DNA of 64,000 nucleotides from Bryoerythrophyllum caledonicum (taxonomy: Eukaryota > Streptophyta > Bryopsida > Pottiales > Pottiaceae). Position 1 is the stretch's first letter. Every line of letters begins with the position of its first letter. Positions 8,293 through 59,338 of this stretch are shown here, in pieces. The translations under genes were made by a program, and so were the position numbers. The notes beneath the pieces were generated by a model. It made no database searches. It was not told the origin of the DNA and worked only from the letters and a program-made list of their open reading frames with translations. The stretch lies in NCBI GenBank assembly GCA_963971425.1, contig OZ020514.1:28632602-28696601 (forward strand), written 5' to 3'.

Positions 8293-8296
8293 TAGA

Positions 8297-8320
8297 AAAG
8301 GATATTTAACTAAATGTGGA
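8297..8320 (+). repeat. Left terminal inverted repeat of Element A
   Basis: Reads AAAGGATATTTAACTAAATG and on to 8320. It is the reverse complement of 18719-18742 except at the third base. TAGA directly precedes it (8293-8296). Confidence 0.9.
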
Positions 8321-9925
8321 TAAAACGATCAATTGTGGACCAAATTAGATACTTGTGATGACCCTAAACACCTACTAGATTGTCCTAAAATATACAATTT
8401 GTATGGATGAAGGATACTCAGAATCTACTGAGGATTGTTAAAATGTCACGTGACTTCTCTTCTCAGGGGGCGGCCGACCATGAGGCGACGTAGACAACCT
8501 AGATTCTTTGTCTTCTATATTAACAAGAATAGTGCTTTGTATCGCAGAGATATAGTAGAAGGAATTTAAACGCAAGTGTCCGCGGGCAGCCGAGACGTAG
8601 TGATCGAGGATAAGGTGAAACAAGCCATGATGGAGGATGGCGTCATGCACATAGTCCGCGATCATGAGCGTAAAAATATCTTGAATAAAGGGCTCAAATC
8701 CTGCGACTAGTGAAGAGAGGGGAGGGTGGTTTGTAAGCACAAGGAGGCTGGAAAAGATTAGAAATGAGCTTCATACAAAACAATGAAGCCAGCGGTTTAG
8801 GACACTTTGCCAAAAAAGACGATTGCGTATTATCTGAGAAATAGTCGACACGATTGCATTTGTTGTGTAAAGTGTACAGCCGCAGTCGGCGGGGAGCCGA
8901 CAAGAACGCTCAATTCTATCCAAAAAGAGACCTCGCCATCTAATAACCAAGAATAGTACCTACAGTGCGATCTGACAACAATTGAGTCCTAAGATAAGGA
9001 TTAAACAGCAATCCATCGGCTGGCAACCGATGAAATAAGAATCAGTCCTCATCTCCACAATTGACTGAGATGCCACCAGCCTCCAGAGTTGCAATCGCAG
9101 CGCTCGCTGCCTCAGGCGGAATACGGTGAGAACCAGGAGGACCTTTCTTACTGTGCGACGGATAGCGGTGCGAGTAAAGAACAATTCTGTAGTTTTGTAC
9201 CTCTAAAAGACAAGGTTTCCTTTGCCATCTTCTGGTCTAGCATTCCCTCGCGACAATCTTCTTTGATTCCCTCTTCCCTGACATGGGCATCCACCATTCG
9301 ACTTAGAAATTCTCGTTGCAATCACCTGGTGTCAGATTGACGCATTCAAGAACTTGTCCCATCCACACGGGAAGGTAATGACTGTTGCTAGGACGGTAGA
9401 GAACGAAATCATTGAGTAAAACATCTCGAAATGGATTGAATGACAGCTTCGGACGGCTCAATTCAGGGCCACAAAAAAGATATGCGTCGGGGTCATCCTC
9501 AGGGGTAATGTCAGGAATTCCAATGACGTCATCGGGCGACTTCGAGCCACGAGCATGATCGCGAATCCAATTTGAAGTTGGCCAAAATCCTTCCTGGAGA
9601 GACTCCCGGTTTGGTGGCAGAGGACCAGAAATAAGTTGATGGATACGCTCCCAATACAAAATGTAGGGTGCCATATCCGCTGCATAACGCTTGTCCCGGG
9701 ACATGCCGGTCTTCCAGAACTCAATATATTTAGCAATTCTGTTCTTGATGAAGGATTGCTTCTCGCTGACTCTAGTGGCACGGACAACCTCTTTCTCTAG
9801 GTTTCTTTTGTTCCAGTTAACTCGGACGTCCCCACAGAGAGGCTTATATGGGACTGGCTTTGGATCTCCAATAGGTAGGCGTGGATTTCCGTGCTCATCC
9901 GCGGTCCACATCTTGACAGGCTTAC

Positions 9926-10092
9926 CTATAGGAGTCCAAGAAGAATCAGTGGCGCAAATTAAATGCGCACACGAAATCACAACAGAAACGTATAGGTCCA
10001 TTGGTGGGCCGCCGACGGAGATGAAAGACAACGAAGGTTGAGAAAGCTAAAGAGAGATGGAAATAGGAGTATTTCCACCATGGCAGGCTTAC
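9926..10092 (-). other. Intron of Element A transposase inside a tandem duplication
   Basis: On the minus strand the donor reads CTCCAG/GTAAGCCTG and the acceptor CCTATAG/GTAAGCCTG. The same coding words (CATDSSW, then GKP) occur on both sides, about 167 bp apart. Splicing restores SSWLPPGKPVKMW in one frame. The homologous place in Element B (about 56520-56560) is uninterrupted coding sequence. Confidence 0.6.
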
Positions 10093-11040
10093 CTGGAGGA
10101 AGCCAGGATGAATCAGTCGCACACTCCTTGTATCTCATGACCGGCCATCCAGCGTCATCTCCTTCCTCCTCCATGTAAAACTTGAACATGTGCATCTCTT
10201 CGAGTCCCACAATCCTGTTACTCCCGTCATGATGATATCCAACAATATAACTCTTAAAATCTGCAACCTCTTGTACAAGTTCCGGAATGAACGCGACAAT
10301 CTTCTACGAGTCCATGAAGGCTTTCATGAGGTCAGCCAAACAGTAAGTATTCTTCTGTTTAATGAGTTTCGATAGATAACTAAAATGTGCGTCAATATCG
10401 TGATGAGTGTGGCCAACAATCAAGAATCCCACAGTGACCTCCTTAAAGATTTTTCTGGCTGTAAGAAGCGAACAAAACGCCATGAGGAACCGATTCTTGT
10501 TATCCTTGGCGGAGTTATCAAGCTCGAGAAACAACTTCCGAGGAAGCGGGATTTGCGGTCTACCAGAAGGAGTATTCGGGAATGGATCTCCTTTAGTTTC
10601 TGGAATCGATGACATACATCTGAACTTCCCATGAAGTAGAGCATCAAAGAATGGATTGAGGGGTGGACAGGTAAATAGCTCCTTGGACTCTCGCACAGGG
10701 CGCCTCTCTATTGCTCTTAGAACACGGCAGAGAGAAGAGATGGTAAAATTCGAGTCCCCCGGCCATAACGACGTCGAGTAATGAGCGTAGGCACCGTCGC
10801 CGTGTCCATGTGTGAGCATGCCCTTTGGTAGTTTAGGTGCCTGTTTTTGTCATCCGTGAGTCCTTGCCACTCGTCTAACCCGCGAGGATATTTTGCGATA
10901 AACTTGACGAGGAAGTCGCACTCCGTGCACCTAGAGAAGTTGCTGCCCATAGACTTCACTTCTACATTTCTAAAGAACCTCTTCTTCATGTTACTCACCG
11001 CAGATTGCAAAATCGGCTTAGCATTGCATTCGACGTTTAC

Positions 11041-11221
11041 CTGGATAAGACATTTTAAAGGATTTCAATGATACAGAAAGACGATGGTGTCATGGGTTTG
11101 CCCAGTAGGCAATTAGTGAGTTGCGTCGGCGGGCCGCCGACGTCGCTCGTTGAAGCAACAGAGAAGTCAGACCATGCTAAATTCAAAGATAGGGGAAAGT
11201 AGTGACAATACTTACAAAGTT
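11041..11221 (-). other. Palindrome-bearing intron of Element A transposase
   Basis: Donor AACTTT/GTAAGT near 11220 and acceptor TATCCAG near 11041 on the minus strand. It carries GTCGGCGGGCCGCCGAC at 11125-11141. The homologous intron of Element B (51439-51644) carries CCGGAGATCTCCGG instead. Confidence 0.65.
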
Positions 11222-13005
11222 GGCCATGTCACGTAAGTGATTCCAATTCATGGCCGCGGGAAGGACCTTCAACGCAGTGACCCTCTTGTTTCCGATGACA
11301 CGGAACTCATTTGGCATCTAGTCCGCACTGTCATTGATAATGCTGGATATGGTCTCATGAGCCTGAACGGTGTGAGGCCTGGGCCGCAAAGTGCCTGCGT
11401 TACCGTGGCTGCCATTTACGTGACCGATCTTAGAATCATATTTGTAGTTGTAGTATGCGGACTTCGATACGCCGTGAATGTTATACCAAGCGACTTCACA
11501 AACATCGACACCCATAAGGGTGATGTATAATTTTCAGAATCCAGGAATTTGGTGAAGCTAGTCCGCAACTGCATAGGCCATTTTGCGTCGTTGTTCAAAA
11601 CTTGACGCGTAGTACTTCCTTCGAATCTTGCGGCTGTCTTCCCAACGAAGTAGCTGGCAACATTGTTTCTTACAACACCTTCTCACGCTAACGAGGCGGC
11701 ACTCATCTCGGCTCTGAAGGCGCCAGAACTTGGAAACCGACACATCGTCTTTCGGCAAAAGCTTCCGACGAACGCCCCTATAAGGATCCTAAGGCACACC
11801 CTCAAGCCCGTCATCCTCGCATGCCGCTTGACTATGCGTTGAGCAGAATGTAAGGCACTCAGAAAGAAGTGGACCACCTTCAAGGCGCGTGTGAGTTAAT
11901 TGCCAGCGCATTGTAGTCATCTGAAGATCCTCGTCCTTTGAGACAAAGAGGACCCCAACATCAGTGTCTCCTAAAATTTTTGAATCGCATGCCTCATGTG
12001 GCAAGCAAACTTGGATCATGGCACGCCCAATTGTAGTGAAGTTGTCATCTAGAAGCTCGCAGTACTTGTTCCGCCATTGTGGTCGGTCTAGGAACGAATT
12101 TGGAACAAATACACTGTCGAGGGTAACGGGTGGATTTTCAAAAGAGTGATGATTATATTGTCGGCGGCCCGCCGATGGGACATCATCGTCACTTCAAGCA
12201 GCCATTTCAGTCTCCGATTCGGATCCCTCCATATAACTACGGGTACCATGATTATAATTGTCCTCATATACCCTATCGGAATGGTTGTCGTCGTCCGATG
12301 CTTCAATGTCAGTATTAATCAATGAAGGGTCAATCCCCAGGGCATCATCGGAGCGGACATCAAGTGAAAAGGGACGAACCCGATAGCCACTCCAAAGGAC
12401 TAGTAAGCCTACAGAATTGCCGAGAGCGCCGATGGAGGGAATCTCGCAATGTGCGGGATGACCGACGTATTTAGGATTGACTGATTGAACTCTGACAAGT
12501 AGGAAGAAGCTGTGAGGAATGAGAAATCCCTCCCACGTACCCTTTGGTGAGCATTCTTCGATGACTCCAACTCCTACACAACGTCTCTGATCGCCGCTGC
12601 CATCAAATAGGACCACCTCCATGCAGTTGCGAAGGTCCAGAAACTCTTGGATGGGCTTCAGGTCATCAACTGAGAGAGAAGAATCTCGGCTGGCTTCTCT
12701 GAATGTTCAACGATGTCAGCGTAAGGCCTAAGATCAACGGCCTCCCAGTTAATCGACCGACCTTCGCAGTCCCGCAACATGGAAACGCCATCGACAGGAA
12801 ATGGAATGGGCATCTCCAGTGCATCGGACACTTCAATAACCTTCACACGTAAAATCCATGGGTCTTTGAGAACGACCCTCTCGACAATCGCCCTATCAGC
12901 AAAGTAGAGGCCGGAATGAGTGAGAGCAACAGCAACTCCTCTGGGGGGCTTCCATCGTCCAGACTTCCCATTCCTCATAAACGACAGCATGGGTTCGGGA
13001 TCCAT

Positions 13006-14218
13006 GCTAACGTCAGTGATATGAAATCACTGAAGACAGTGGATGAGGAAATTGCAGCAACAATGATTTTGTCGGCCGCCCGCCGACGAAGGTGGCTCTG
13101 AAGTCTCGAAGTTGATGAACCTGAACAACAACCACACAAGTCCCTAAATTAGCTTCAGAGTCGCTCGGAAATCTGTCTCGTAAACCATGCCATCGGCTGC
13201 CCGCCGACGGCTGAACGTTTCACATAGAGTCTACCATGTGAAGGATATGACAGGCATCCGCCGAGCGAATATTATCATCCGCCGACGGCCTTTAGAAGAG
13301 GAGAAGAACATTTCGTGGGACTAAGTTAGTACTACCTGATTTAAGATGAGCCATCTAAAACAATAGAACTGCCCGATACGTGACAGTGAATATCCAAGCA
13401 TATTCACGTGAAGGTGTGAGATAAAAAACGGACCATTGTTGGACCAATGGTAACGGAAATGTGCATGATCAGATATTTAGACTCTAAATTAGCCTCTAAG
13501 AGAATCAGTACCACTTGGGAGCGTGAGAAGTCAAGGCATTGAATAGGGGGCAAGCGAGTCCAGAAATGACGCGTGAGTTCCTAAGGTTTAGTTCAAATCC
13601 CCACCATCATTCGTACAGGTTCGCACGCGAACTTCAAATTTGAAATTAGCCGCCAAAATTGATCAACGACTCGCTCTCAAGGGTTGACGAGAGCGCGCCA
13701 AGTTCTGCAGATTCAAAATGGAATGAGGGAACAAGATGAAATCAAATCATTCGAAGTGACATCGTAGGTGTAGGACCCTATACCCTAGGCCGAATGATGG
13801 CTGAGGCGACATTAATCATGTCACATCAATTCGAGGTATCCTGGCCCGAAAACCCTAGTTTCTATGTTTTTATCCAAGACGACACTTCGAGATGGCATGT
13901 CACTTCATTAATGATTCCTGGATCAGGCTTAGCACCCGGTCATGAAGTCTCCGCCGTCCGAAAATCCTCCTACCGAGATCCAACGGTTGCGACGGTCCAC
14001 CGGATCCGAGTACAAAACCTTGTCGTCTTCCTATTTCTGGTCATTTCTAATCCTGCACTTCTTGATTTCGAGTTCTCGCTAAGTTAAGTGTGCTTACGGC
14101 TTTAAGCTTAGTGTTTGTATTCATCCGCCGATCAACAACAGCCGACAGACGTCGGAGGCTAGCAGAGGCGCTTCAGCGCAATTGATAAGCCGAGGAGTAA
14201 TTCCCACCCGCCGACAAA
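13006..14218. promoter_or_regulatory. Divergent intergenic region of Element A
   Basis: This lies between the starts of the minus-strand transposase (13005) and the plus-strand GGQHT gene (first exon candidate at 14219), so it should hold both promoters. It contains palindrome copies at 13071 and 13192 and half-sites (CCGCCGA) near 13257, 14123 and 14209. An open frame at 13794-14087 has no recognised domain and is not called. Confidence 0.5.
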
Positions 14219-16847
14219 ATGGCGACAACGCAGAGGTATGTACATCATCACCGTCGGCGGCCAACCGACGGATTTTGGGTGCCGTATTAGATATACCCTT
14301 TTGGTTTATGGTGTTTTGTCGGCGGCCCGCCGATGAAAGTTGAGTTCAGTGTAGTTAAACATACTGTTATGTTCAAATTTTTGTTCAGAAGTGATCACAA
14401 GTGGATGTAGTCCGGTTTCAGAATGAATTCGCGATAGGGTCTTCAAAATGGTACTTTGTGATTCACAATTGACTGCGTCCGTCGGCGACCCGCCGACGAA
14501 TGCTAAGTTCAGACTTGTAGAAGCTTAGGTTGCATTAGGGTCTATCGCACAGATATGATAAGCAGAGTGTGAAGTGTAGATTCCAAGGTCATAGTGTCTC
14601 CAAACATCCGTCTCTATGTTGTACACTTGTCTCTATGGTCGTCGGCGGCCCGCCGACGAAGTCTTTGGCAGGTTGTCTGATCTTCCATTTTGTCGCTCAG
14701 GACTGTAGTTCCAAACAAGCTGAAGTGGCTCGTCGGCAGCGCTGTGGACGTCGAAGTGGACGTGGGCTGGCCGGATGACAACATGCCACGAGTCACATGT
14801 GAAGTCCACCCACAGTTAACGTCGTGGGGAATCACATGGAGGAAGGAAGTGATTGCCGAGTTGGGTATCAACGGAAATCACAACGCCAAAACATTCGTGG
14901 GTGAGAGCCTGGTATCCGTGCTTGACATGAAGGAGGACCTGGAGGACGAGGAGAAAGTGCGACTCCTCATTTAGGTGAAGGTCAAAATGGCTGATGAAAA
15001 CCCGGACATCATCGTGGTTCGAATTCCCTGGATGACCTGCACTCAAGAACTATGCATCACTGCTCAGGAGAGCGGGATGCAGTTCCTCAGCTTGACTCCT
15101 AAAGACAAGACGGATTTACTTACTTGTTTCAGTGAAGCGAAGGACCTTAGGGATGCGGAGCACTCCAGGGTCGGGGTCATGACGGCCTCAAAGTCGAAGA
15201 CGGTGAGGAAGCCCAGGAACTCCAGGAAAGCAGCTAGCAACGTTGGGACTGAAGTTGCTGGAACTCCTGACACCGGAGAGTCGAGTATGCAGGTGGTCAA
15301 GAGGACGGCGTCTAAGAAGGAGCCGAAGGTGGAGTCCGTGGCCGATGCGCTTTCATTTGCCAACCCCCTCTCTGTCAAGACAAGTGGTCAGGAGCTGGAC
15401 ATCATGTACAAGGCGTTAGAGGATGGTCTGAGCGCCTGTTATCCATTCGGGCAGAACATGCTCCCAGCAAAGATCTCCTCTGACAAAATTCATGTTGCTA
15501 CCGACTCGATGAAGCACAGACCCATCATCGCGAAGCGCACAGAACAACTTGTGCTATTCTACAGAGGATTGGGACCATGGCGGGCAAAGCCACCTCTGTA
15601 TTGTATTCCTCTGCGGGGTCCTCCAGGAACAATAGAAAATGGGAGGGTACTGCATGGGATTGAGCTTGTGTTGCCAAGGATTCACGCGACCATCGACGTC
15701 GAAGTTGTGCTTGATGGAGTACACTACAAGTGGTGGAATTCTCCAACATGCCACTGGTATATCATTGGTGGCCAACACACGTACCTGGCATGCAGAGCAC
15801 TTGGCGAGTTGGAGCCCGTGGATTCGGACAGGGCGAATTACTTCCTCGAACACGATATTATCCCATTGTGGTCGAGGGATCCGGAAAATCTCGTGAAGAT
15901 CTCCAACCTCTTGAACATTGAAATCAAGGACAAGAAAGCGGAGGAGACCTTCGTGTCGCAGCTCCGGAAGATGAGGGATAAGTGGTTCGAGCATGGTCGG
16001 CTCGATAGGAGGACGAACTACAAGAAGTGGAAGGTAATGTGTCACTTTACTCAGCAATTTTGCGCTCCGTTATTGGCAATCTCTTGAGCATGGTGGATTA
16101 ATCATAGATTATGTTTCGTCGGCGGGCAGCCGACAACATTGTGATTGAGCTCATGTATATGTCATCTTCATTATTTTACAGGAGTTCTGTAAGGTATACC
16201 TTGCAACACTGTTGGAGAAGGACTCCAAGACGGACAAGTTGAAGCTGCCGCTTGTCTTTGCACCAGACAATCTTTACAACAAGTGGCAGGAAGTATTCGA
16301 CGCATGGGATCGGGGCACCGTGATTGGTGAGGATGAGAAGAAGCCCCAAGACATCCTTAAAATTCCTCAACGGGACCTAACCCTCCACGACCTTCAACAC
16401 ATTCTCGCCCTCCGGGACGAGGAATCCATGAAGCTGGCTCATGAAATCCTCACGAAGAAGGTATACTTGAAGGTAACCGGGGGGCGCGACAAGGATGCAG
16501 AAGGTGTATCGCTCAAATCCTGGTGTCAAGACAAGAAGATGGAATACATCATCAAGAACGAGCTCATGCTGATGTATCGGAAGTATTTATTGAAGAAGGC
16601 TAGCGATAACACCTACTCACCTTGGCCGGTTGAAGAATACGTGAAGCTGGCAGAAGAGAAGGGCATCAGCGACGAAACCGTCATGAACATCAGACGCGAG
16701 CTGGAGCTGAGTGATCCGGGGAAGGCCTACCTCAAAGGGAGGTACAGCGGGATTACTCCAAGTACCACCACAGCGCCAGTGGAGTTCCATGCGGCGTTAT
16801 TGAACTACTCGAGTCCAGATTCAGCGTCCATGATTACTACAGGCTAA
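14219..16847 (+). pseudogene. Element A GGQHT protein, ParB/sulfiredoxin/DGQHR-like
   Basis: Candidate first exon 14219-14235 (ATGGCGACAACGCAGAG, then donor GTATGT). Firm exons are 14701-16033 and 16182-16847, with intron 16034-16181 (GTAATG...TTTACAG) carrying a palindrome. The protein has an N-terminal region resembling its Element B relative, a basic Ser/Thr/Lys linker, then WYIIGGQHTYLACRAL at about 15760. That motif resembles box II of ParB nucleases and the DGQHR/sulfiredoxin fold (GxHR). A helical C-terminal region includes IIKNELMLMYRKY. One TAG at 14972 interrupts it; Element B has VVQ or similar there, so a CAG change is likely. By analogy it may bind or cut DNA at the palindromes, but that is inference. 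Exons between 14236 and 14700 are unresolved. Confidence 0.65.
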
Positions 16848-17299
16848 ACTCCGATTTGGGTCAGCGTCGTATTTTCCGAGGACCAGCTGTCCACAACAGA
16901 TACTGAGAAGTCCTCTCTTCATTCCAAGAGGGCTACGACAAGCCAGGTTGCCTAGATGAAGTGATGGCCAAGTTGACAGTCACTCCCCCACCTTAGAGAG
17001 CCATATTTTCTTAGAGGGCCTCTCGAAAGGGCACTCACTTAAATTCACTAGACTCTCGCCCATCGTAATACATGGATAAATGTTACAGACAATTTCATGT
17101 AATTACTTTTATATATTCATCTCAAATTTTGCTGAACTACTTTTCTCTTTTATATTCCTCGCATATTTCATTTGAGTGGTTTGTTTCTTATCCATCTACT
17201 TGTTGTAGTTTCCTTCGTCAGCGGCCCGCCGATGTGTTTTACTTCTTACTGCCAGCCGTAGTTTGCATTATGACAATGTTTCTTTAACATTTTTCAGGG
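16848..17299. other. Spacer or intron before the HAD-like gene of Element A
   Basis: AT-richer sequence with one palindrome variant (GTCAGCGGCCCGCCGATG, near 17218) and a TTTTTCAG acceptor at about 17298. No gene is seen. Confidence 0.5.
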
Positions 17300-17317
17300 A
17301 ACATCCTTCCATTTCAG

Positions 17318-17970
17318 ATGCATGCACGCTCTTCCATCACCGATTCGAAATGTATTGTACTATGCGTCAATGGTCTTCTTTGCTATGTGGACCCTAACAA
17401 GCCGATATCTTATGATTTTCCTCATGGGAATGTTGTCCGGAGGCTGGGCCTAAAAAAACTATACGATATGTTACTTCCGCGCTTCAACATCGGGCTCTGG
17501 TCAACGATTCCTCTAAACAAGTTAAAGCCGCTCTTGTTGCATATTCTTTCGGAAGGAGTCTTTCAATGTTTGTCGTTTGTTTATAGCAGAAGTGACTTAG
17601 CTGATAGTTCGAGGTTTTCTTGGAGCTACAAAACGCCGTCCACGCTCTACAAGAAGAAGCAATCTAGGCATGTCAGCAAGCCTCACCAAGTATTGTTTGT
17701 GGACGTTGAACCCAAGTCGCTCCGACGTACCCCCGACTGGATGTGCTATATCCCTGGCCGTTCCGTGGTCATTTGACCTCTCCAACCGAAGACGGAGTAA
17801 TTCCGAATGTGGCAACCGACATCATTCCACTCATCTTCCCCCTCCATAGATTTTCATCCGTCCCTGAATATATGACGCAGGTTGAACGCTCGGGGCAGGC
17901 GCATTGGGCGGTTACGCATGCGCGCAAGTATGGGCGAGCTGTCGTCAGATGGTCGGAAGTTGAATGGTAG
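17318..17970 (+). pseudogene. Element A FCP1/HAD-like protein, catalytic motif altered
   Basis: The frame 17318-17776 aligns with the FCP1/NIF-type HAD proteins of Element B. Motif I reads VLCVNGLLC where active HAD phosphatases have DxDxT/V, so the nucleophile Asp is Cys and the second Asp is Asn. Then comes FNIGLWST (motif II region) and a VLFVDVEP segment like the VDD motif. After a frameshift around 17760 the C-terminal part continues to 17970 (residues IIPLIFPLHRFSSVPEYM). It lies downstream of the GGQHT gene on the same strand, as in Element B. An enzymatic role is unlikely; a binding or scaffold role is possible. An upstream exon probably exists. Confidence 0.5.
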
Positions 17971-18224
17971 GTCTTTCTCCATCGGCGGCCCGCCGACTAT
18001 CGTTGGTTGAGCGTATTACCTTCGAATCATCTGATGTCATACTGACAATCCCTAGCGCTTTCTATATCATATGTTCTTTATATTCAGATTGTTCTAGAAC
18101 TTATCTCGCTGGGTAGACTAAGAGGTTTTTTTTAGTAGAATTAGTGATTTGTAAAAGACGTTGTTTTCTCTGCCAGGTCTATTTTGTTAGTCGGCGGGCA
18201 ACCGACATTGTACTTATCCTCCTA

Positions 18225-18455
18225 TTAATTTATTTGTTCATGTTCTCTGGCTGCATCTTCGTTGTCTTTCCACTGCCGTTCAATGTTTTCGACGCCATAC
18301 TCAGAACCCATGTTTGACAATTCCTCCTGCATATCTTTTATCTTCCGCAATTTTTTCCGTATATATTTCCTTGGATTTATTTGTTGCCGTAGAAAAGGTT
18401 TAAGCAAATTCATGCAGTATGTTGTCTTTGTCTTTGATCGGCTGTCAGCCGACAA
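18225..18455 (-). CDS. Small basic, coiled-coil-like ORF in Element A
   Basis: An intact 76-codon frame rich in Lys, Arg and Glu (INPRKYIRKKLRKIKDMQEE), predicted to be helical. Its first codons overlap a degenerate palindrome (GATCGGCTGTCAGCCGAC). It sits between the HAD-like gene and the right terminal repeat, on the opposite strand. I see no counterpart in Element B and cannot exclude chance. Confidence 0.25.
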   Translation of the reverse strand: MSADSRSKTKTTYCMNLLKPFLRQQINPRKYIRKKLRKIKDMQEELSNMGSEYGVENIERQWKDNEDAAREHEQIN

Positions 18456-18718
18456 TCATGTACTGTGATTTTTCAAATAACATTGTCCTCATTCTTTAAA
18501 CTTTCTAAACCGGTATGTATGATCTGGAATTTGATAAGAACACCCTCATCCATTGGGCGCCACTCGAATCTACGACAGTGGTAGATTTTTCAAACTGCAT
18601 CAACGCTCTGGCAACATTTTTGGCCTAAACCCTCTCTAGAATGGGTGAAGCCCATTTTCATGAATCAACTGTCCGCCGAAGAAATGTTTCGCCACTCTTA
18701 TTTTTGGAATTTTTTTTT

Positions 18719-18742
18719 TCCACATTTAGTTAAATATCCGTT
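18719..18742 (-). repeat. Right terminal inverted repeat of Element A
   Basis: Mirror of 8297-8320 with one mismatch. It is followed by the second TAGA copy at 18743-18746. Confidence 0.9.
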
Positions 18743-18746
18743 TAGA

Positions 18747-20196: not shown

Positions 20197-22439
20197 ATGG
20201 CCACTAAACCTTGGTCTCTTTGGTATATCAAAATCACTGAAGTACAAGGCAGGAAGACCGACTCCCTCCAATGCAATCTTTGTCACCGCATTTTTGCAGG
20301 AAGGCTAGAACGACAGCTAAATCATCTCGGATACGAAGAACTCCCTGGAAAGCGCAATTGCGGTGTTGGCCTCTGCACCAAATTGACTACCCGCATACAG
20401 ACTTTATTTAAAAATTGTCGTGGCCACTACCCGAAACATAATGGAGAACTTTTCTCCAAACATTGCCCTACTCGACCATTGAAATTTGCGCCTGCCTCAA
20501 AATATAGCACGGCCAAATCCACTGGTGGAGATTCTTGTGTAGCGTCCACTCAAGCCCCCCCCCAATGATTTTACCATCAACCATGGTTGAACCGACCCCC
20601 ACCTTCCACGACTTCACCGAACAAGGGAGTGTAGGTGCCACCTTCCCCAGATTGGTGAGGCAATCCGTGCTCAAATAAGGCTTTCAAGAAGTAGAGCGGC
20701 GGGAGCTAGACAAAGTGTGGGCGAAGTTTTTCTACGAAGCAAATGTGCCGTTTGCTATAGCACGGAATGTTGCGTTCAAGGAAGCCGTGATGAAGACTGC
20801 CTCTTTCAAAAAACCATATGTTCCACCTTCTTACCATGACATTTGGATAAGGTTGTTGGAACAAGCGAAGGCTGATTTGGAAGCACAACTCAATAAAAGA
20901 CTGTTTGAGAGTGTTCGGAAGTTTGGAGGAAATCTAGCCATAGATGGGTGGACATCTGTAACTAGTCGCCCTTTGAGCAATGCAATGCTCGTGTCTCCCG
21001 CTGGAGAGCTCTTCTTGGAAGCTGTAGATACTACGGACAAAGAAAAGAACGATCCATATCTGGCATCCATCATGTTCAAGTTCATTGAACAAGTTGGCCC
21101 CCACAACATTGTTCAGGTGTGTACTGACAATGCTCCAGTCATGCTCAATGCCTCAGCATTGGTCGTCAAGAAATATCCACACATACACATTCAAGGATGT
21201 GCCACGCATGCCATGGGCTTATTGTTGGAGGACTGGGGGAAGGCTACATGGATAAAAGAAACTCTCGAGAAGGCCAAGTTTTTGGTTAAGTTTGTTAAGG
21301 ATCGGCAAATGCCCCTCGCCATGATGTGTAAACACGAGGCTAAGTTCAGCCTATTGCTGCTCGGACAAATAAGATTTGCATGTAATTTCACAATGATTGA
21401 TCGCCTGTTGAAGGTCAAAGAATCATTGGAGCAAACCGTCGTTGATTCTGATTGGCGGACAAACACCTCCAAGAAGTCACTCTCGGCTAGAGATAAAGTA
21501 GTCATCTCTCGAGCCATAAAAAGAGTGGTTCTAGATGAGCGTTTCTGGGAGCACTGCACGAACTTCCAAGAGATGGTAGCCCTTGTAGTGTATGCGCTTC
21601 GGGAATTCGATGCCAAGGACCCTTGCATGGCTAAGGTTTTGCACATCCTTCGCGACCTCGATAAGCATGTCCTAGCGTTGCGTAATGAACCATTTTGTCT
21701 CGATAGCGATTTAGCGGTCATTGCTGAGGACGAGTTCTACGCACGGAAACGGATGATGACAACGGATTTACATTCCGCCGGTGCACTTTTCAATCCTTAT
21801 TTACTCCATGACAAAGAGTTGGCCGATGATTCGGATGTCATGACGGCATGCAAACGAGTACTACAAAATCTATGTCATCCTAAGACTTACCCGGACGTGG
21901 TGAACAAGTTCCTCGCATTTCGAAACAAGGATGTACCATTCCATGACATGTTGGATCCTAAGGACCAAAAATGTTCTCCGTATGCTTGGTGGGATTTTCA
22001 AGGTGCTTGAGGAAAGTTCCTTGCACCAATTGCAAAGAGAATACTAGCGCAGACAGTGTCATCTTCTTCTTGCGAACGCAATTGGAGTAGCTACTCTTTC
22101 GTCCATGACAAGAAACAGAATCGGTTATTATCGGGAAGGGGTGATGACTTGGTCTTTGTGTATACGCACTCGAAGTTGCTCGTGAATGCAAAGTTGACGG
22201 ATGAGAATGATATTATTGCTAAGTTCATGGTCAATAGCAATAATATCCTTCGTCGTGCACCGACTCTGCTTTCGGAAGACATGAAGGACAAGGGAAGAGA
22301 AGATTTATCATCCTCACGTGCAACGGCACTACACGGGCAAAAAACGCAAGGGCCCTCAGTGAAGAGTGTTGAGGAAGGCAAGTACCACGGTCTTGAACTT
22401 GCGGAGAACCCATGCAAACAACAAAAGAGCCATTCCTAG
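20197..22439 (+). pseudogene. hAT transposase, BED finger plus DUF659 and hATC, degenerate
   Basis: The first frame (20197-20568) begins MATKPWSLWYIKI and contains a BED-type finger (LQCNLCHRIF, then a His near LNHL). The body (20715-22439) has the YVPPSYHDIW segment, DGWTSVTSRPLSNAML and VCTDNAP, all typical of hAT transposases. It ends in the hATC dimerisation signature SSSSCERNWSSYSFVH. Stops interrupt it near 20568 (with a probable frameshift), 20665 (TAA) and 22008 (TGA). Total length fits the 650-750 residues usual for plant hAT proteins. It faces ORFB, with about 0.5-1 kb between their 3' ends. A frame at 22561-22911 may be its degenerate C-terminal extension. Confidence 0.85.
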
Positions 22440-25750: not shown

Positions 25751-26508
25751 TGTAGAATGTGTATTTAGTTTTTGTGTTCACATGCCGATTAGAATTGGTA
25801 AGTTTTGGAAGTTAGCCAGTTAGTTTTGTAGTTCAGTAGTAAGATTGGGAAGTTACGTGAAAAGTTGGTGAAGAAGCAAATGTGACGTTTGGAATCTGGA
25901 AGTTAGGTTCAGTTTTTGGATAAAGACTTTGTGGAAGATGGATTCAAGGCCAGACTGTGATAGTCGTAAGCCGAGGCAAGCTTGGTGCTACCTCTTTGTT
26001 TTCTTTGAATTTTCTATTTTCTTTTGTAGGATTGTGATTAAGATGAAGTATGAATGGAATTGGAGTTAAGAAAGTGTGATTGCGTGATTGGAGTTGAAGT
26101 TTATGAGCATTGTATGAGAATTGTGAAAATAGAAAAGTTAGAGAATGGAATTGTGAAAGTGAAGAGATTGTAATCTCTGTGAATGAATTGGTTATTGAAA
26201 GTGATTACGGTAAGATAATCACGTATTATTGATTTCACTGTATTGTGATTACAGTGAAGAAAAGAGAAATTGACATGATTATGAGATCATGAAGGAAAGA
26301 GGATTGGAGAATATTTAGGTTTAGAATGATGCAAGAAAGAGTGATTGAGTGTTGATAACTCTTAAGAGAAGTTAGCAAGCAAGTGTGTAATCAATCGTGA
26401 CAATAACATAGTGGCATTCATAGAAACAGTCTTTCCCCGCGAACAAATCCACCTATACTGATTTGGTGCTTTGGGTTTATTTCCAATCCAACCAAAACGA
26501 TAATTACA
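25751..26508 (+). repeat. 5' LTR of the 25.7-35.3 kb element
   Basis: Starts TG, ends CA; 758 bp. It is nearly identical to 34572-35329, with differences near positions 13, 50 and 56 of the LTR and in the last eight bases. Confidence 0.95.
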
Positions 26509-26511
26509 TTT

Positions 26512-26529
26512 TGGCGCCGCTGCCGGGGA
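26512..26529 (+). other. tRNA primer-binding site
   Basis: TGGCGCCGCTGCCGGGGA begins three bases after the 5' LTR. It is close to the PBS typical of Athila/Tat elements, complementary to a tRNA 3' end. Confidence 0.8.
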
Positions 26530-26660
26530 TGGATATTATTATGAAATGTTAAGAATTGTTTAAAAGAAAAAAAATATATATGAAGAACCGGTCTTCGGTT
26601 ATAATTTTATGGAGTATAAATTGGTGTATTATAAATTATGTATGGAAGAAATGAAGGATT

Positions 26661-29246
26661 ATGAGCAGTGACAATGAAGACAATTTACAAAGAAGGAATC
26701 GTCAGATTAAAGAAAGATACGATAGGTTGTGTTCAAGAGAGTCGTTACAAAAATTAAGGGAAAGAACTCAACGAGAAAAACTTAGGAGAGTGACATCATT
26801 TTCGTGTTCGAGAAGTGGACGTAGTAAGAGTCCAGAAGGATTGGAAACAAGTGATAGTTCTTCAAACGAACGTTCAAATAAAACCGGAAGTAAAGGAAGA
26901 GGAAGTATTCGAATAGAAATTGGAAGAAAACCAATAATACAACCAATGGCTGAGGCGGCACCTGAAGTTCCGATTGCGGTAGCTATGGGAGCAGTAGGAG
27001 ATCGCACCACAAGTGTTGCACCATTGCCAACATTTAGTGGTTGGCCAGGTTCAGATCCAGATCATCATTTGTCTCAATTTTTGACAGCGTGTGTAGCCAA
27101 TAATGGAAGAACTTAAGATATATGGCTGAGATGGTTTCCTGCCACGTTAAAAGATACGGCATTTGAATGGTATAATCGTCAAACAGTTGGTCAATTTCCA
27201 AATTGGGAAGCTTTAAAAAATGCTTTTCTAACGCATTTTAGGCCAATTGGTTTTGAAAATCGTCTTCGAGAAAGTTTAATGACAAGCAGAATGTTTTTAG
27301 GCGAACCAGTTCAGTCTCATTATGGGAGAGTTGCAGATATACTTCGCAAATGGCCGAATAATCAAATGCCTGAGTCAATTATATTGTGAATAATAACAAA
27401 TGGTTTGAATCCACAGGAATTGAAAATGTTTGTAAAGGAGGCTCAACCAGCCACCGTAGGAGCATCTTTAGAACGTGCAAAGATATGGGAAGAATGTCAT
27501 TATGATCAATTGTTACCTGTAGGCCCTACGTTGATTCCCAATTCGGTGAATCCATAGGTACAAAAAGGAAATACGTTAATAGGAAGTTATCCATGGGTTG
27601 TGAATGCGGCACAAGGGGCTACAAATTTGCAAGGAGTGATCAATGCGACACCGTTGCAATCAGTACCGCCCACAGCAGTAGTACCGTATGCTGCGGCATT
27701 GACTTATCTCCCACATGAATTACCAATTTCAAATGCTATACCAAATTCGAATGAGACGTTATTATTAAATCTTACAAAGAAAATGGAAGAATTGGCGGTT
27801 AATATGGCCAAAGAGAAAGAAAAACGGCAAAAGCCTACCAATACAAGACCCAATGTATGGTGTAATAATTGTAAGGGGCAGGGTCACTTTGATACGGAAT
27901 GTCCATCACCACGACAAACGGGATTACAATGCAAGTGTTGCAGTGGAAAACATCCTACCGCTAAATGTTGGTATTTAAATGATCAACCGCAATTTGGCGC
28001 TCAGACAATGATTCAACCGACTCAATGGGATGTTAATCAAGTGCAAACTAAAAATATGGGAAATTGGGACGGTAATCGTTCCAATGGACAAAATAGAGGT
28101 GGTGGAAATTTTCAAAATCCAAATTTTAACCCAAATTATGGACCCAATATGCAAAATTGTAGCAACAACCAACAAGGCAATTTCCAAGCTATACCAAATC
28201 AACAGCCCAATACAACATTTGTTGCGACTAGACAACCAGGATCTTTTACTGAAGCTACACGGAATCAGCCTAGTCGATATATATCCGTTGAGACACCCAA
28301 TATGCCAGGTGGTTCACGAAGAAAGGTAGTGCGTTGTATTCGATGTCGGCAATTAGGACATTATGCCAGTGACTGCCCAAATCCAAAATTTGTAGAAGAT
28401 TATGCCCCAGTTTGCGGAAATTGTAAGCAATCTGGTTACCAATATTTTCAATGTAATGCTCCATTCAATCCCAATAACATGGATCAACAGGTACCAACTA
28501 CAGTACAAATTGTGGAAGAGAACCCTAAAACTAATCAGGAATCACCAGTGCATAGAGTAGAAGTGGTCCAAGCTGTACTTACAAGGAATGAGCAGAAAAA
28601 TCTCGAACCAAGTCCAATATTGGAAATACCGATAGAGGAAGATCAACCAATTCCAATTCAGGATGACAAACCAATCCCAGTAACAGGAGTGAATATTCAT
28701 CCCAAACCAACCACTATATTGGGACGAACACCAATTCTCGAAAAACCAATATTGTCCCAGTTGACAAATCAATCTTATGTATTGGAAGAACCAATGGTAC
28801 GGGTTTTGCCGAAACCAGTTAAGGAACTAGTTCCAAAAATTGGAAAGACCAATTTACCAGTCATGGAAACCAAAATTGCAAAGAAGAAACGGGCATTGGG
28901 TATTACAACCAATCTAGAACTGTATGATATTTTAAAAGATTTAAGTACAATTCAACCTACAATTTCCATGAAACAATTGTTGGCGATTGCACCGGATTGT
29001 CGTACTACATTAAACTCGTCGTTAATTCGACGCAGATCTCGTAATAAGGAAATTAGAGAAGTCAGTTTGAATCCCGATCCAGGAGCTCCAACCATTGATG
29101 TTTCTATTGACGGTGTGCTAGTTCCAGGTGTACAAGTTGATGGTGGTTCTAGTGTAAATTTGATGAACGCTGATACCATGGATGAATTGGGATTGGACCA
29201 ATTGTTACCTACAACAGTAGTATTGCGAATGGCAGATTCCAGTTGA
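26661..29246 (+). pseudogene. gag and protease of the young gypsy element
   Basis: One frame throughout, broken by TAA 27114, TGA 27387, TAG 27555 and TGA 29244. The retrotrans_gag region is around 27050-27550. Two CCHC zinc knuckles follow (CNNCKGQGHFDTEC, CIRCRQLGHYASDC) and a third that has Tyr for His (CGNCKQSGYQYFQC). A repetitive Pro/Ile-rich linker comes next, then a protease segment VDGGSSVNLMN. The stops are all single changes from CAA, CAG or CGA, judged from the residues expected. gag would package RNA; this copy cannot make full-length protein. Confidence 0.9.
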
Positions 29247-31250
29247 GTTAAACCTATGGGTACACTAAGGGGAATTGATACAGTTATTGCAGGCATTACT
29301 TACAAAATTGATTACATTGTATTCAAAGTGCAAAGTTCAATATTGTCTTATCCAATTCTGTTGGGAAGGCCATGGTAATATCAAGCAAAAGCTCGTAATG
29401 ATTGGGGTAGAGGCACATTGACAATTGGGGCCGGAAAAGATAAAATTGTGATTCAGATGTATCCAGTTCAATATCATGGGGAAACACAGGTTGCTAATTT
29501 TGAATTCACGACTGACTGTGAAGATGAATCTATAGAAGATGAATTGGAAGATTTCAATTGCATCCATATTGATAAACCGGTAACCGTCGAATGTAATCCC
29601 GTTAAATATCAATGCGCAGGATTGGGTGAATATTTAGTTGATCCAACTATTAACGATGATTCTGATCATATGATTGTACATTGGATGAATCCGCATGAAG
29701 TTCATCAAGTAAAGGCTATGGAACCTGAATTGGAAAGTTCTAATTTGTGTGATTTTATGAAAGAATCTGATACCGAGCATAAGGTTATTCAAGAAGTTTT
29801 TAAAACTCCAAAGTGTCAATCCATGAATTTGGGTAATGAGACTGATCCCAAAAATATTCAAATTTATGATGGTATAACGGGTGAAGAGAAAGCTATTTGG
29901 CATTCCTATTTTATGAGGCATAAATCAGCTTTTGCCAGGTCATATGCAGATTTAAAGGGTATTCGAGCTGAAGTCTGTGAACATCGAATTATATTAGAAG
30001 ATAATGCTGTACCAGTTCGTCAAAGGCAACATCGACTTAATCCAAAATATTCGTTATTGGTTAAAGAAGAATTGGATAAGTTATTGAATGTGGGATTTAT
30101 ATACCTAGTACCCTATAGCGAATGGGTTTCACCAATTGTTATGGTTCCAAAGAAGAACGGGAAAATTCGTACTTGTCAAGACTTTCGGAAATTGAATGCG
30201 GCAACTAAGAAGGATTATTTTCCGTTACCGTTTACAGATAGTATATTAGATGCTGTAGCTGGACATGAATGTTACTCGTTTTTAGATGGATTTTCCGGTT
30301 ATAATGAGGTGAAAATTGCTAAAGAAGATCAATTGAAGACTACTTTTACAACGGATTGGGGAACATTTGCGTACAAAGTAATGCCATTTGGACTTTGTAA
30401 TGCATCTGCCACATTTCAACGGGTGATGACACAAGCATTTCAAGAGTATTTGAGAATTTCTATGGAGATATTTTTAGATGATTTTTGTACGTTTAGTTCA
30501 AGAGCGAGACATTTGGAATGTTTGGGAAAGTGTCTAGAACAATGTGCAAAATATGGAATCTCTCTAAATACGGACAAATGTCACTTCAGGGTACCCTCTG
30601 GTAAATTATTGGGTCACATAGTTTCAACTGCTAGTATTGCTACGGACCCTGTTAAGTTAAGCTTATATTAAAATTACCGCAACCGGATACAGTAACGGGA
30701 GTCCGTGGTTTTGTTGGCCATGTTAGTTATTATCGAAGATTTATCCATTCATTTGCAGTTATGTGCCAGCCACTAACCAATCTTTTAAAGAAACCTCCAA
30801 ACGATGGTACCAGTCCAATTTGGACTAAAGAATGTACAGTGGCTTTCGAAACGTTAAAACAAAAATTGGCAAGTGCACCAATTCTGGTGGCACCGTGCTA
30901 GAAAACCCCATTTCATGTTTATGTGGATGCGTCCAATGTAGCTATTGGTTCTATTTTAAGCCAAAAAGATGTTAAGGGATTTGATCATCCAATTTACTAT
31001 GCCAGTCGTCAATTGGTTGCCGCAGAACGCAATTACACTACGACTGAACGGGAAGCATTGGGAATGATTTATTCTGTACAAAAGTTTTGACATTATTTGC
31101 TTGGATATAAATTTGTATTTCATGTGGACCATGATGCTCTCAAGTATATGATTAATAAACCTCAGTTGAGTGGTCGTATAGCAAGATGGGTGCTGTTATT
31201 ACAAGAATTTGATTTCACTATCAATGTACGCCCTGGGAAGGTCTCATGCC
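29247..31250 (+). pseudogene. Reverse transcriptase and RNase H of the young gypsy element
   Basis: RT lies within 29418-30660 and shows MVPKKNGKIRTCQDFRKLNA, then FSGYNEV and IFLDDFCTF (catalytic DD). RNase H follows at about 30900-31250 (HVYVDASNVAIGSIL; HVDHDALKYM). Defects are TAA 29376, a frameshift near 30665, TAG 30899, TGA 31088 and a frameshift near 31250. Domain order and spacing are normal for Ty3/gypsy. Confidence 0.9.
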
Positions 31251-32603
31251 AATGCTGATCATTTATCTCGTTTAACCAATGTATTGGGAAATGAACCAAT
31301 TGATGATGCATTACCTGATGCACAATTATTTGCAGTGGATGTAATCTTTGAGGAATATAGTGAGTTGATCCAGTATTTAACATTTCAAACGTTTCCTTCA
31401 CATTTTACGGAGAAACTTAAACGCCGTCTTATTTTAAAAAGTGCACCTTACACTATGATTGGAGAAGCTTTATATAAGCAAGGTAAAGATGGAATTTTAC
31501 GCCGTTGTATTTCTCAACATGAAGTTTGTTCTATATTGGAAGGCTGTCATTTGGATAGTTGTGGTGGACATTTTGCTGGAGACAATACGGCACGCAAGGC
31601 TTTACAGGTTGGATATTGGTGGCCAACATTATTCGCGGATGCGCACCAATTTGTAAGACGCTGTGATCCATGTCAGAGAATTGGACGGCCAACCGGTACT
31701 TCAGCCATGCCATTAGTACCAATTCTTGCCCAAGCACCGTTTGAAAAATGGGGTATTGATTTTGTGGGCCCAATTGCACCTGCTTCTTGGATTGGACAAA
31801 AACGTTATATATTGGTAGCCACTGATTATGTTACAAAATGGGCTGAAGCTTCTGCCACAAAGATTGATAATGCAAGTACGGTTGCCACATTTTTATATGA
31901 AAATATTATTACTCGTTTTGGATGTCCAAAGGAATTGGTTAGTGATCGTGGGACTCATTTTTTTAATTGTACAATTGAAGCATTAACAACAAAATATGAG
32001 ATTAAACATCGAAAAACTACTCCGTTTCATCCAAGAGCAAATGGACAAATAGAGAAGACCAATGGTATTTTATGCAAGATTTTAACAAAGACAATTTCAG
32101 CAGCGGGTACAGATTGGGATACCAAATTGTTTGCTGGTCTATGGGTGTACCGTACTGCATATAAAATTACTACCAATGCTATACCTTTTCAATTAGTTTA
32201 TGGATAAGAAGCAATTTTACCAATAGAATTGGAAGTGCCCAGTTTACGAATTGCTATTGATAATCGATTAGAGGATTCCGAATCATTGGAGCACCGATTA
32301 ATAAAATTGGAACAATTGGATGAAATTCGTGCGAATGCTTTATTTATAATGGAAACTACTCAAACGAGGCGAAAGAATTATTATGATAGTAAATTACGGC
32401 CAAAGTCTTTTATGCCCAATGATTTAGTATTACTTTATGATAGTCGTTTTAAAAATTTTCCAGGTAAATTTCAAGTTCGTTGGCATGGCCCATATCGCAT
32501 TATTGAAGGATTTCCCAATGGTTCAGTGCAATTGGAAGATTTTATGGGAACCAAATTTATTACTCGTATTAATGGCAATCGGTTACGGCTTTATAATACG
32601 TAG
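31250..32603 (+). pseudogene. Integrase of the young gypsy element
   Basis: HHCC zinc-binding region at about 31520-31690 (ends CDPCQRIG). The catalytic core has DFVGPI, LVSDRGTHFF and HPRANGQIEKTNG, giving the D, D and E positions. The C-terminal part runs to 32603 and has no chromodomain that I recognise. TAA at 32205 interrupts VYGxEAILP, where the family normally has Gln. An AAAAAGGGAGG polypurine tract follows at about 32659. Confidence 0.9.
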
Positions 32604-32658
32604 TCAGAATTGGACTTCAAGTAATAATAGAACTTTAAAAACCCGAGACGGGTTTTGT

Positions 32659-32670
32659 TTAAAAAGGGAG
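32659..32670 (+). other. Internal polypurine tract-like site after pol
   Basis: TTTAAAAAGGGAGGTAGGC just downstream of the integrase looks like a plus-strand primer, but the 3' LTR starts 1.9 kb further on. The extra ORF lies between. Confidence 0.45.
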
Positions 32671-32938
32671 GTAGGCAGTTTAGTTGTGATGATGGGTTAG
32701 TACGTGTGAGGTGAGTGAAAGAAGTGGTAATAATGAGAATTGAGACAGTTAGGGTAATGCAAGCTGTCACAGTTAATGGAGTAGGTCAGTTCATTATGAG
32801 GTATTGTGAGAGGGAAGAAGAAAGACCATAGTAGAAGCCAAAAGTGGGACTCTTGTGAACATTGTGTGTCTGCGTGAATTGTAGCGAGTTTGAGTGTTTG
32901 AGAGAATAGCTGAGTGCGTAAGCTTGTTTTTGTGAGTA

Positions 32939-34522
32939 ATGGGGATGGAGCGTAGCAAGAGACAGTCCAATAGGGAGGAGAGACAGCGCAATGTGAGGCG
33001 CAAGGAAGACTTGCCACCGTTAGAGTGTATTATCGTAACAAACATGGAGCCTATTCGATTAGATGTGTGTTGGTCGAAGGAGAAGCAACAGTGTTTTCGT
33101 GAGGCACACATGCACGGTTTCATTCGGTTGTCGCAGAACTTGCCACCGATTGACGTAGACTTGTTAGCGGAGTATTTGAAGAATTACGATCTTGCAGATG
33201 GGTTGAGTGTAGTGAAGGGGAAGATAGTCGGTATAGACGAGACGGTGCTGAACAAGGTGCTATATCTTCCGATAGGGGAGCTGCCGGTGTCTGGTGATTT
33301 GGAGTCGGATTTCGTGCCTGGCAGTTACTTCAAGTCAGGAGAAAAAACATTCAAGAAGGGCCAAGGATGGAAGACTGGGGAAGCTCTTACGCCGGAGTTG
33401 GGAGAGTGGATGCGCTTCGTGCAGAAGAGGCTGGCGCTGAACCGACACACGACGTACATGGCAAAGAAGTTGCTGCTTTCGACGGTGGCGACGTTGGAAG
33501 GTATGGTGTTCAACTGGGCAGTGTATGTGGCGACAAGAATCCACGCGGAGCTGGAAGCCAAGAGGAAGATGGGGAAGGTGACGACGTTCTTGTGTGCCAA
33601 TTACGTGAGCGAAGCGATCAAGTACGGACTGCAGCATGACGGTAAGCAAAGGAGCGTGCAAGTGGTGGAGGTGCCGGAACTGAAACTGGTTGGTCCTCAA
33701 TTGCAAGTATTGGGTCGTCAATTGGGTAGCACGTCTACGGCAACACCAATTTCGGTAGAGCTGTATCAGAGAATTGGTCCATCAGGGAGTGAGCAGCAGA
33801 CGGGAGGGTTGAAGGAAGTAATTTTAGCTCAGCTCACCCAGTTACAAATGACAGTGACCAAACTGGATAGTGAGTCTAGACTAAAGAGAGAGTTGGAGCT
33901 AAGGATGGGAGAGATTGAGGGGTATAAGGTCAGAATTGGTGAATTGGAGAGGACAGTGGCGGAAGATACTCTCAAGGGTGGGAGATTGGAGAGCACTTTG
34001 AAGAAAAAGGAAGCAGAATGGGCTGAAGAGCGCCAGACACTCAAGTCCATGGAATTAATCAACGACCAGAAACGTAAGGCGCTCAAGGAGAAGTGGATGC
34101 AGGAGAAGAAGAAGGTGACCGATTTGGCGGTTGCAAGAGGAAAATCGGAGGCAGATTGGGAGGCATTGCGGGACCAGTTGCAGAAGGAGAACGAAGAATT
34201 GAAGACGAAGGTAAATTCTTTGGAGGGAGCCATGGTTTGTGCGGTTCCTTCGCAGGAATTGGTTCCGGTATCAACCAATTCTGAGCCAGTATCGACACAG
34301 CACGCAGAATTGCAGAAGATATTGGAGGACAGGGAGAAGCAGATCACTCTTCTTGAAGCTCAGGTAAGAGTATTGGGTGAGCTGAATGAAGATCTGACGG
34401 AGCAGTTACAAGGGGACCAGTCGAACACCGATGCGGATGAAGGTGATGAAGAGGAGGAGGTCAGGACGCCTAAGGACAAGTCTGGGACTTCGGACAACGC
34501 CAATAACCTAATTGAGGTTTAG
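32939..34522 (+). CDS. Extra 3' ORF of the gypsy element, intact, coiled coil
   Basis: An uninterrupted 527-codon frame between pol and the 3' LTR, starting ATGGGGATGGAG. Residues 1-45 are basic. About 45-235 form a globular helical domain (ends LCANYVSEAIKYGLQ) resembling the putative plant transposon-protein domains found in Athila/Tat extra ORFs. Residues 280-490 are strongly coiled-coil (Glu/Lys/Leu heptads). The tail is acidic and unstructured. Its plan matches the 662-codon ORF at 52659. It has no stops although gag-pol has eight, so it may have been preserved by selection on the source copy. Function is unknown; it may be env-like or assist in trans. Confidence 0.8.
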   Translation: MGMERSKRQSNREERQRNVRRKEDLPPLECIIVTNMEPIRLDVCWSKEKQQCFREAHMHGFIRLSQNLPPIDVDLLAEYLKNYDLADGLSVVKGKIVGIDETVLNKVLYLPIGELPVSGDLESDFVPGSYFKSGEKTFKKGQGWKTGEALTPELGEWMRFVQKRLALNRHTTYMAKKLLLSTVATLEGMVFNWAVYVATRIHAELEAKRKMGKVTTFLCANYVSEAIKYGLQHDGKQRSVQVVEVPELKLVGPQLQVLGRQLGSTSTATPISVELYQRIGPSGSEQQTGGLKEVILAQLTQLQMTVTKLDSESRLKRELELRMGEIEGYKVRIGELERTVAEDTLKGGRLESTLKKKEAEWAEERQTLKSMELINDQKRKALKEKWMQEKKKVTDLAVARGKSEADWEALRDQLQKENEELKTKVNSLEGAMVCAVPSQELVPVSTNSEPVSTQHAELQKILEDREKQITLLEAQVRVLGELNEDLTEQLQGDQSNTDADEGDEEEEVRTPKDKSGTSDNANNLIEV

Positions 34523-34571
34523 GAATTAGTTTTGTGTTTACGAGGGCGCTGCACAGTTAGAACTGGGACTA

Positions 34572-37346: not shown

Positions 37347-37400
37347 CTATAATTTTTTAGTCAATTGTCCGATTTAAGAAACAAACTGTTTTCTCACTAA

Positions 37401-44874: not shown

Positions 44875-44924
44875 CGGTCTCCTTTCCATGAAGTCTCACT
44901 CGACGTTCCAGCTCCAGTCGCCAT
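44875..44924 (-). CDS. Candidate first exon of the Element B GGQHT gene
   Basis: GAAATGGCGACTGGAGC on the minus strand starts a 50-nt exon ending GACCG/GTAAGT. Element A has ATGGCGACAACGCAGAG/GTATGT at 14219, so both begin MAT and then splice. The gap to the next clear exon (43608) contains six palindrome copies. Confidence 0.45.
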
Positions 44925-59334: not shown

Positions 59335-59338
59335 CTAA

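Follow-up and report, generated by a model that had tools for sequence, protein, structure and literature searches.

A putative self-recognition system in two related plant transposons: a GGQHT-motif protein and element-specific palindromes

Introduction

The 64,000-nucleotide stretch of Bryoerythrophyllum caledonicum DNA analysed here (contig OZ020514.1, positions 28,632,602 to 28,696,601; the window) contains two large transposons, elements A and B, each of which encodes a protein with a GGQHT motif and carries many copies of a short palindrome. This raises the question of whether the protein and the palindromes work together, and if they do, whether they form a parS-like system. A preliminary description of the window had suggested this from the resemblance of the motif to ParB box II and to the DGQHR/sulfiredoxin fold, with segregation, silencing control, self-recognition or DNA modification as candidate roles. 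The interval on which it centred, 14219–16847 in element A, spans four palindromes, the two-exon gene downstream of them and a fifth palindrome in the intron (16118). Our preferred reading, to which we give a probability of roughly one half, is that the palindromes of each element are bound by that element's own GGQHT protein, which controls or de-silences the element in a manner similar to VANC.

Two transposons of one family

Element A (8297–18742) is a 10.4-kb terminal inverted repeat (TIR) transposon with the TIR AAAGGATATTTAACTAAATGTGGA and its inverted counterpart AACGGATATTTAACTAAATGTGGA. Element B (37401–59334) is a 21.9-kb TIR transposon with nested inserts and the TIR ATGCCATATT[C/T]AACTATTTCTGGACT. 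The terminal pattern ATATTYAACTANNTNTGGA is common to both, and its four occurrences in the window are the four element ends. Direct repeats of 4 bp adjoin the TIRs at an identical register in the two elements, giving the target site duplications (TSDs) TAGA for A (8293–8296 and 18743–18746) and CTAA for B (37397–37400 and 59335–59338); the flanks also hold chance matches of 4 to 6 bp, and only the TAGA and CTAA pairs lie at the TIR register.

Both elements encode a transposase with a DUF7869 domain (PF25273), which we take to be a DDE transposase domain. That of A (9225–11707, reverse strand) has several exons with in-frame stops and matches that of B by tblastx, and the domain is found at 10304–10849 (E 1.8e-35). 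That of B (50945–57235, forward strand) is split by an insert at approximately 52.19–55.95 kb, and the domain is found at 55915–56442 (E 3e-29). Translated comparison also shows that the gene order is mirror-imaged between the elements: the transposase gene, the divergent GGQHT-protein gene and then HAD/NIF-like genes. With TIRs, 4-bp TSDs and a DUF7869 gene in each, A and B are DNA transposons that have diverged within a single family of large TIR elements.

The GGQHT gene of A lies on the forward strand and is modelled as two exons, 14987–16033 and 16182–16847, with splice sites placed by hand. It looks damaged, as the in-frame region upstream (14681–14974) ends in a TAG (14972–14974) inside sequence homologous to P0002, one of the relatives described below. 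The gene of B (41238–43738, reverse strand) looks damaged as well, with two in-frame stops (42761–42763 and 41970–41972). Because of these stops and those in the A transposase, the copies of A and B present here are probably not fully functional. As the preliminary description had stated, the motif is present in both, as HWYIIGGQHTY in A (15752–15784, forward strand) and as HFYIVGGQHTV in B (at about 42545–42577, reverse strand, within the tblastx block 42512–42583).

Element-specific palindromes

That element-specific palindromes accompany the gene was borne out by the counts. The A-type palindrome, GTCGGCGGCCCGCCGAC, is present at 13 sites in element A with up to two mismatches and at none in four other stretches, and when up to four mismatches are allowed there are 17 sites in A (Markov mean 0.17) and one elsewhere (36390). 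The B-type palindrome, CCGGAGATCTCCGG, is present at 20 sites in element B with up to one mismatch and at 25 with up to two (Markov mean 0.08), with none elsewhere at either threshold. The null expectation was taken from 100 first-order Markov sequences per stretch, for which means ranged from 0.00 to 0.17 over the thresholds and was 0.000 per stretch for the A type at up to two mismatches. The arms are fully complementary in 2/16 tabulated A sites and in 11/23 tabulated B sites, the table leaving out sites 8462, 54140 and 54180. Weak conservation continues outwards from the B-type palindrome, as (C)A.CCGGAGATCTCCGG.T(G), and the flanks of the sites carry little information past two to three bases. 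No array reported by Tandem Repeats Finder covers a tabulated palindrome, though arrays that are less than about 70% alike can be missed by this program. There was no Rfam match at the gathering score, and a sigma-70 scan of the intergenic region is uninformative for a eukaryote.

The sites avoid coding sequence. None of the 17 A sites (P 2e-4) and none of the 25 B sites (P 1.5e-5) overlaps an exon supported by homology between A and B, where exon limits were drawn by hand from the homology blocks. In this test the B sites 50526, 54140 and 54180, which fall in open reading frames (ORFs) of uncertain status, were not counted as exonic, and the ORF at 37924–38520 was trimmed to 38400, so that site 38470, which is inside the full ORF, was counted outside.

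The sites are also enriched between the divergent genes, with 6/17 in A (P 0.04) and 9/25 in B (P 1e-5, with the 5.3-kb insert of B excluded from the length). The region concerned in A is 13027–14680, and four of its palindromes are located upstream of the GGQHT gene (14253–14657, with starts at 14253, 14318, 14481 and 14641). In B a cluster is found upstream of the GGQHT gene (43838–44301; sites 43838, 43985, 44074, 44160, 44237 and 44288, and a weaker one at 43909) and a further three sites are upstream of the transposase gene (49830–50011; sites 49830, 49900 and 49998). Introns carry sites too, at 16118–16134 in the A GGQHT gene and at 42188 in an inferred intron of its B counterpart. Sites are found in both halves of each element, and those less than 1 kb from the ends are 8462, 8578 and 18437 in A and 37622, 58998 and 59194 in B.

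The insert between the divergent genes of element B (44420–49750) is AT-rich and palindrome-free and has several tandem arrays, including a telomere-like array of TAAACCC (24.6 copies) at 47564–47735.

Relatives of the GGQHT protein

Protein searches recovered three relatives in all, P0002, P0003 and P0004, on ENA/lgn contigs of 5200, 1169 and 2114 bases respectively. Two of the searches, both of which gave P0002, scored the 8000 candidates with the most words in common, and the search that gave P0003 and P0004 returned three matches, including the query, among 209 candidates. From their sequences the three proteins appear to read through introns. Within this apparent read-through they hold six peptides whose codons could spell the A-type palindrome: LCRLPADT, ILSAGSRYT, CIGCQPIH, LYRLAADI, CIGCQPIR and SIGCPPMV. 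The corresponding peptide pattern, RTCGGCKGSCMGCCGAY, which was derived from A's own sites after the peptides had been noticed, has six full matches in the relatives and one with a single mismatch, whereas 500 sets of shuffled proteins give an expectation per set of 0.008 for full matches and 0.154 when one mismatch is allowed. For the B-type pattern there was one match with a single mismatch against 0.308 expected. All seven compatible peptides lie outside the conserved exons in an alignment read by eye.

The core of the A protein is 37–41% identical to those of the relatives and 31% identical to that of B, and B is 29–30% identical to the relatives. Taken with the peptides, these identities indicate that A's palindrome has been retained in relatives with no more than 37% identity to A, and that B has another. 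The GGQHT cores of A and B (31%) have diverged more than their transposases, which are 45% identical over 635 amino acids of tblastx blocks, a figure that favours conserved parts.

Resemblance to ParB and DGQHR proteins

A profile of the five GGQHT cores (A, B and the three relatives) aligned with 111 phage DGQHR domains over 16 columns with a score of 26.3. This score was reached by 0/150 column shuffles (maximum 20.3) and by 1/100 shuffles that retained the 11-residue motif block, and when the five motif residues were masked it fell to 12.8, near the reversed control (11.0). A separate profile-profile score gave a probability of 28.7% (P 6e-4), which is biased because the DGQHR set was chosen by that very motif; masking the motif removes the score. 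The motif that GGQHT and DGQHR proteins have in common is above chance, yet short.

Searches with models gave nothing significant. Pfam and NCBIfam scans of A, B and P0002 at E<=10 contained no ParB or DGQHR match, with HMMER filters that discard most weak matches. The nearest Pfam model, PF20188 (DUF6551), was sub-threshold, at E 0.28 for B; this family is also matched by a phage ParB-like protein. Sub-threshold matches to phrog_2020 were obtained for four of the five members (E 0.035–0.27), the exception being P0003. When a DGQHR hidden Markov model (HMM) was run against 386 ORFs of the window, the three relatives and 2000 shuffled sequences, the 25 best matches listed included none of the GGQHT proteins. 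The reverse search covered 6451 ORFs, of which 118 have DGQHR, and placed six DGQHR ORFs in the top ten at E 0.96–5.5, which is not significant; ORFs of the P1 ParB region were among the 6451, and the region was not used as a reference. The A core had no tblastn match in phages and plasmids at E<=1, 37 stretches in IMG/VR fitted a peptide pattern with none confirmed, PADLOC had no match, and the best PDB match by sequence was E 0.15 (A exon 1) with none for a three-sequence profile.

In the ParB fold, box II has the form GxxR, and the ParB-fold proteins tested need its Arg to bind nucleoside triphosphate (NTP) (PMC12704722). At this position Thr is found in all five members (GQHT in four and GQYT in P0003). 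AlphaFold2 (AF2) modelling of the five sequences was of low confidence (predicted local distance difference test 47.3, predicted template modelling score 0.33); its order, beta-alpha-beta-beta-beta-[GGQH]-alpha-beta-alpha, is compatible with a ParB/sulfiredoxin (Srx) core but proves nothing. Support for the ParB/DGQHR resemblance previously suggested is at the level of the motif, over 16 columns. The ParB label rests on a motif match of about 16 residues and is not proven, and because the motif is short, has Thr for Arg, and comes with weak profile matches and a low-confidence fold model, we have not filed the protein as ParB. It is possible that it is a degenerate relative of the ParB/Srx fold.

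Proposed mechanism and alternatives

In the mechanism that we propose, each element would encode an accessory GGQHT protein that binds, probably as a dimer, to a palindrome dispersed in the element's own non-coding DNA. Its targets would be the promoters of the divergent gene pair, and the outcome would be activation, de-repression or shielding of its own element from silencing, as with VANC for VANDAL. As the palindromes differ by lineage, each element would recognise itself only. We infer that the binder is the GGQHT protein and not the transposase, that it binds as a dimer, that the outcome is anti-silencing or activation, and that the fold is a degenerate ParB/Srx fold. Among the roles previously listed, self-recognition or silencing control fits best.

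Several points weigh against this proposal. The transposase could equally be the one that binds. Both GGQHT genes have in-frame stops in the copies here. The protein has no clear DNA-binding domain, as the HTH_36 match in exon 2 of A is below threshold (E 0.0072, 16.5 bits, under the Pfam cutoff of 25) and is absent from the B protein in the Pfam scan. The palindromes are dispersed, unlike VANDAL targets, which are in tandem, and the transposase is of the DUF7869 type and not that of a Mutator-like element (MULE). The observed/expected CpG ratio (0.73–1.24) gives no usable protection signal. The palindromes of the relatives are deduced from protein sequences, with the pattern that was derived after the fact. 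Lastly, a tree of the five cores groups A with B (support 0.70), so that a single switch, on B's long branch, is what ties palindrome type to protein lineage.

The main rival is that the transposase binds the palindromes, for synapsis and autoregulation, and that the GGQHT protein has some other role. Subterminal repeats that serve as transposase-binding sites reportedly have a precedent in TnpA of En/Spm, and the presence of sites in both halves of the elements, some of them less than 1 kb from a terminus, would suit such a role. The enrichment of sites between the divergent genes counts against this rival, although autoregulation by the transposase would give the same; the apparent recurrence of the A-type palindrome within the relatives' GGQHT genes also counts against the transposase, although it does not tell the identity of the binder. 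We consider this rival somewhat unlikely. The palindromes may alternatively be passive, either selfish inserts that are GC-rich and palindromic or repeats that hitch-hike, with no protein partner, which would agree with the many imperfect A sites. This is improbable given that the sites are confined between the TIRs, that two elements of one family have two different sequences, that compatible peptides are present in relatives at 37–41% core identity, and that information in the flanks is so scant.

A true ParB/parS system would have a ParB clamp, switched by nucleotide, that is loaded onto DNA at the palindromes and then spreads, and would serve to segregate DNA or to mark chromatin. It would account for a palindrome size that resembles the 16-bp parS (PMC8494293), for a profile similarity above that of all 150 column shuffles (with a DGQHR set chosen by motif) and for the low-confidence AF2 order of secondary structure. 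It is nevertheless highly improbable, with the box II Arg replaced in all five members, the masked score at control level and HMM searches in both directions without significance; an integrated transposon would also have no need of a partition system. Segregation, one of the roles raised earlier, was rejected as the scanned ORFs contain no ParA-like domain and the NTP-binding Arg is missing. The protein could instead be a guide for DNA modification that marks its own palindromes, like the ParB-methyltransferase proteins of algal transposons; no methyltransferase domain is present among the scanned ORFs of A and B, and this candidate role was likewise rejected and is the one that we hold to be very improbable indeed.

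A more specific form of the self-recognition proposal is that a eukaryotic transposon family turned a degenerate ParB/Srx-type domain, with the NTP-binding Arg lost, into a sequence-specific factor for self-recognition and anti-silencing, paired with a fast-evolving, parS-like palindromic 'address' in the non-coding DNA of each element, which varies by element lineage within one genome. We regard this specific form as unlikely.

Other features of the window

Downstream of the GGQHT gene, element A has a HAD/NIF-like ORF (17318–17776, forward strand, or 17288–17776 as also delimited), which is homologous to a HAD-like ORF of B (37924–38520, reverse strand; BLASTP E 4e-5). Both labels were given by eye, and neither ORF has a Pfam match. 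Element B also has a NIF phosphatase-like ORF (38732–39469, reverse strand; PF03031, E 9e-13), with which BLASTP found no similarity in A. The insert that splits the B transposase gene (52188–55950) contains a 662-amino-acid ORF (52659–54647) without an above-cutoff Pfam match. It has TCCGGA 25 times (6.6/kb, compared with 0–1.3/kb in other stretches) and may be a third element with a dispersed motif. The right TIR of B carries a perfect 30-bp palindrome, TATTTCTGGACTTTGCAAAGTCCAGAAATA (59291–59320), in which the inner TIR end is repeated in inverted orientation.

Outside the two elements, an LTR (long terminal repeat) retrotransposon occupies 25751–35329, with 758-bp LTRs that are 99.5% identical, RVT_1 and zinc knuckle matches in Pfam, an integrase placed downstream by eye (Ty3-type order) and then an extra 528-amino-acid ORF. 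Together with the TAAACCC array, LTR elements of plant-like appearance suggest that the genome is of plant type. A hAT-type transposase ORF is present at 20679–22439 (DUF659, E 3.4e-34), with 443 open codons, one stop and then a stretch of 142 codons. Close to the window's right end there is a 173-bp direct repeat (88% identical; 63452–63807).

Comparison with known systems

In the literature covered, in which subscription papers and preprints are thinly represented, so that the negative is weak, neither DUF7869 elements carrying such palindromes nor the GGQHT protein in plants had been reported, and the term DUF7869 itself was found in no paper. The nearest published systems are VANC and the ParB-methyltransferase proteins of algal transposons. 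The latter, such as those of Sola1-1_Ec32, are described as ParB-like/DNA-methyltransferase proteins, for which binding to the element that encodes them, and its modification, have been proposed (PMC12477816). They differ in that the scanned ORFs of A and B have no methyltransferase domain and in that the ParB assignment here is at the level of a motif; the main text of that paper does not contain the word stem 'palindrom'. The TSDs of A and B, at 4 bp, have the length described for Sola2 (PMC3627910).

With sulfiredoxin, DGQHR (DndB) and GmrS proteins the likeness is that IGGQHT resembles FGGCHR, DGQHR and DGQQR and is followed by a predicted helix. Published signatures are F(G/S)GCHR for sulfiredoxin and QR, FxxxN and DGQHR for DGQHR domains (PMC4619093). 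The differences are the Thr in place of Arg and the confinement of the similarity to about 16 columns. ParB-parS, Noc and VirB are similar in that a protein with a Box-II-like motif would be paired with short sites, and VirB is a ParB-type bacterial antisilencer (PMC10770331). Here, however, Thr replaces the Arg of GxxR, no ParA-like domain was found, there is no profile-level similarity, and the setting is a eukaryotic transposon. Sulfiredoxin is named as the most common eukaryotic representative of the ParB fold (PMC12704722), and a confirmed ParB-like fold in the GGQHT protein would be a use of the fold in a plant-type genome besides sulfiredoxin.

For recognition of an element by its own protein through a private motif, VANC is the clearest precedent found among transposons. 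It is described as an element-encoded protein that binds to short motifs and relieves copies of its own element of silencing; these motifs are element-specific and occur in non-coding DNA, both within introns and upstream of genes (PMC5735166). Both A and B likewise have an element-specific motif enriched in non-coding DNA. The likeness extends to an element-encoded accessory protein (PMC5735166, PMC10398659), to the density of the short motif in non-coding DNA, with introns and upstream regions included, and to the joint change of motif and protein between families. VANDALs, however, are Arabidopsis MULEs (MuDR) with tandem 9-bp motifs in the same orientation, whereas A and B have DUF7869 and dispersed palindromes of 14–17 bp, and the GGQHT protein is without a Pfam match above cutoff; the likeness is one of anatomy. 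If our proposal is true, this would be a second such case, in which the transposase is of another type and the code is cleaner, at one palindrome per lineage. With two codes side by side within 64 kb, exchanging sites and proteins between the elements would then be a direct test of whether protein and site coevolve.
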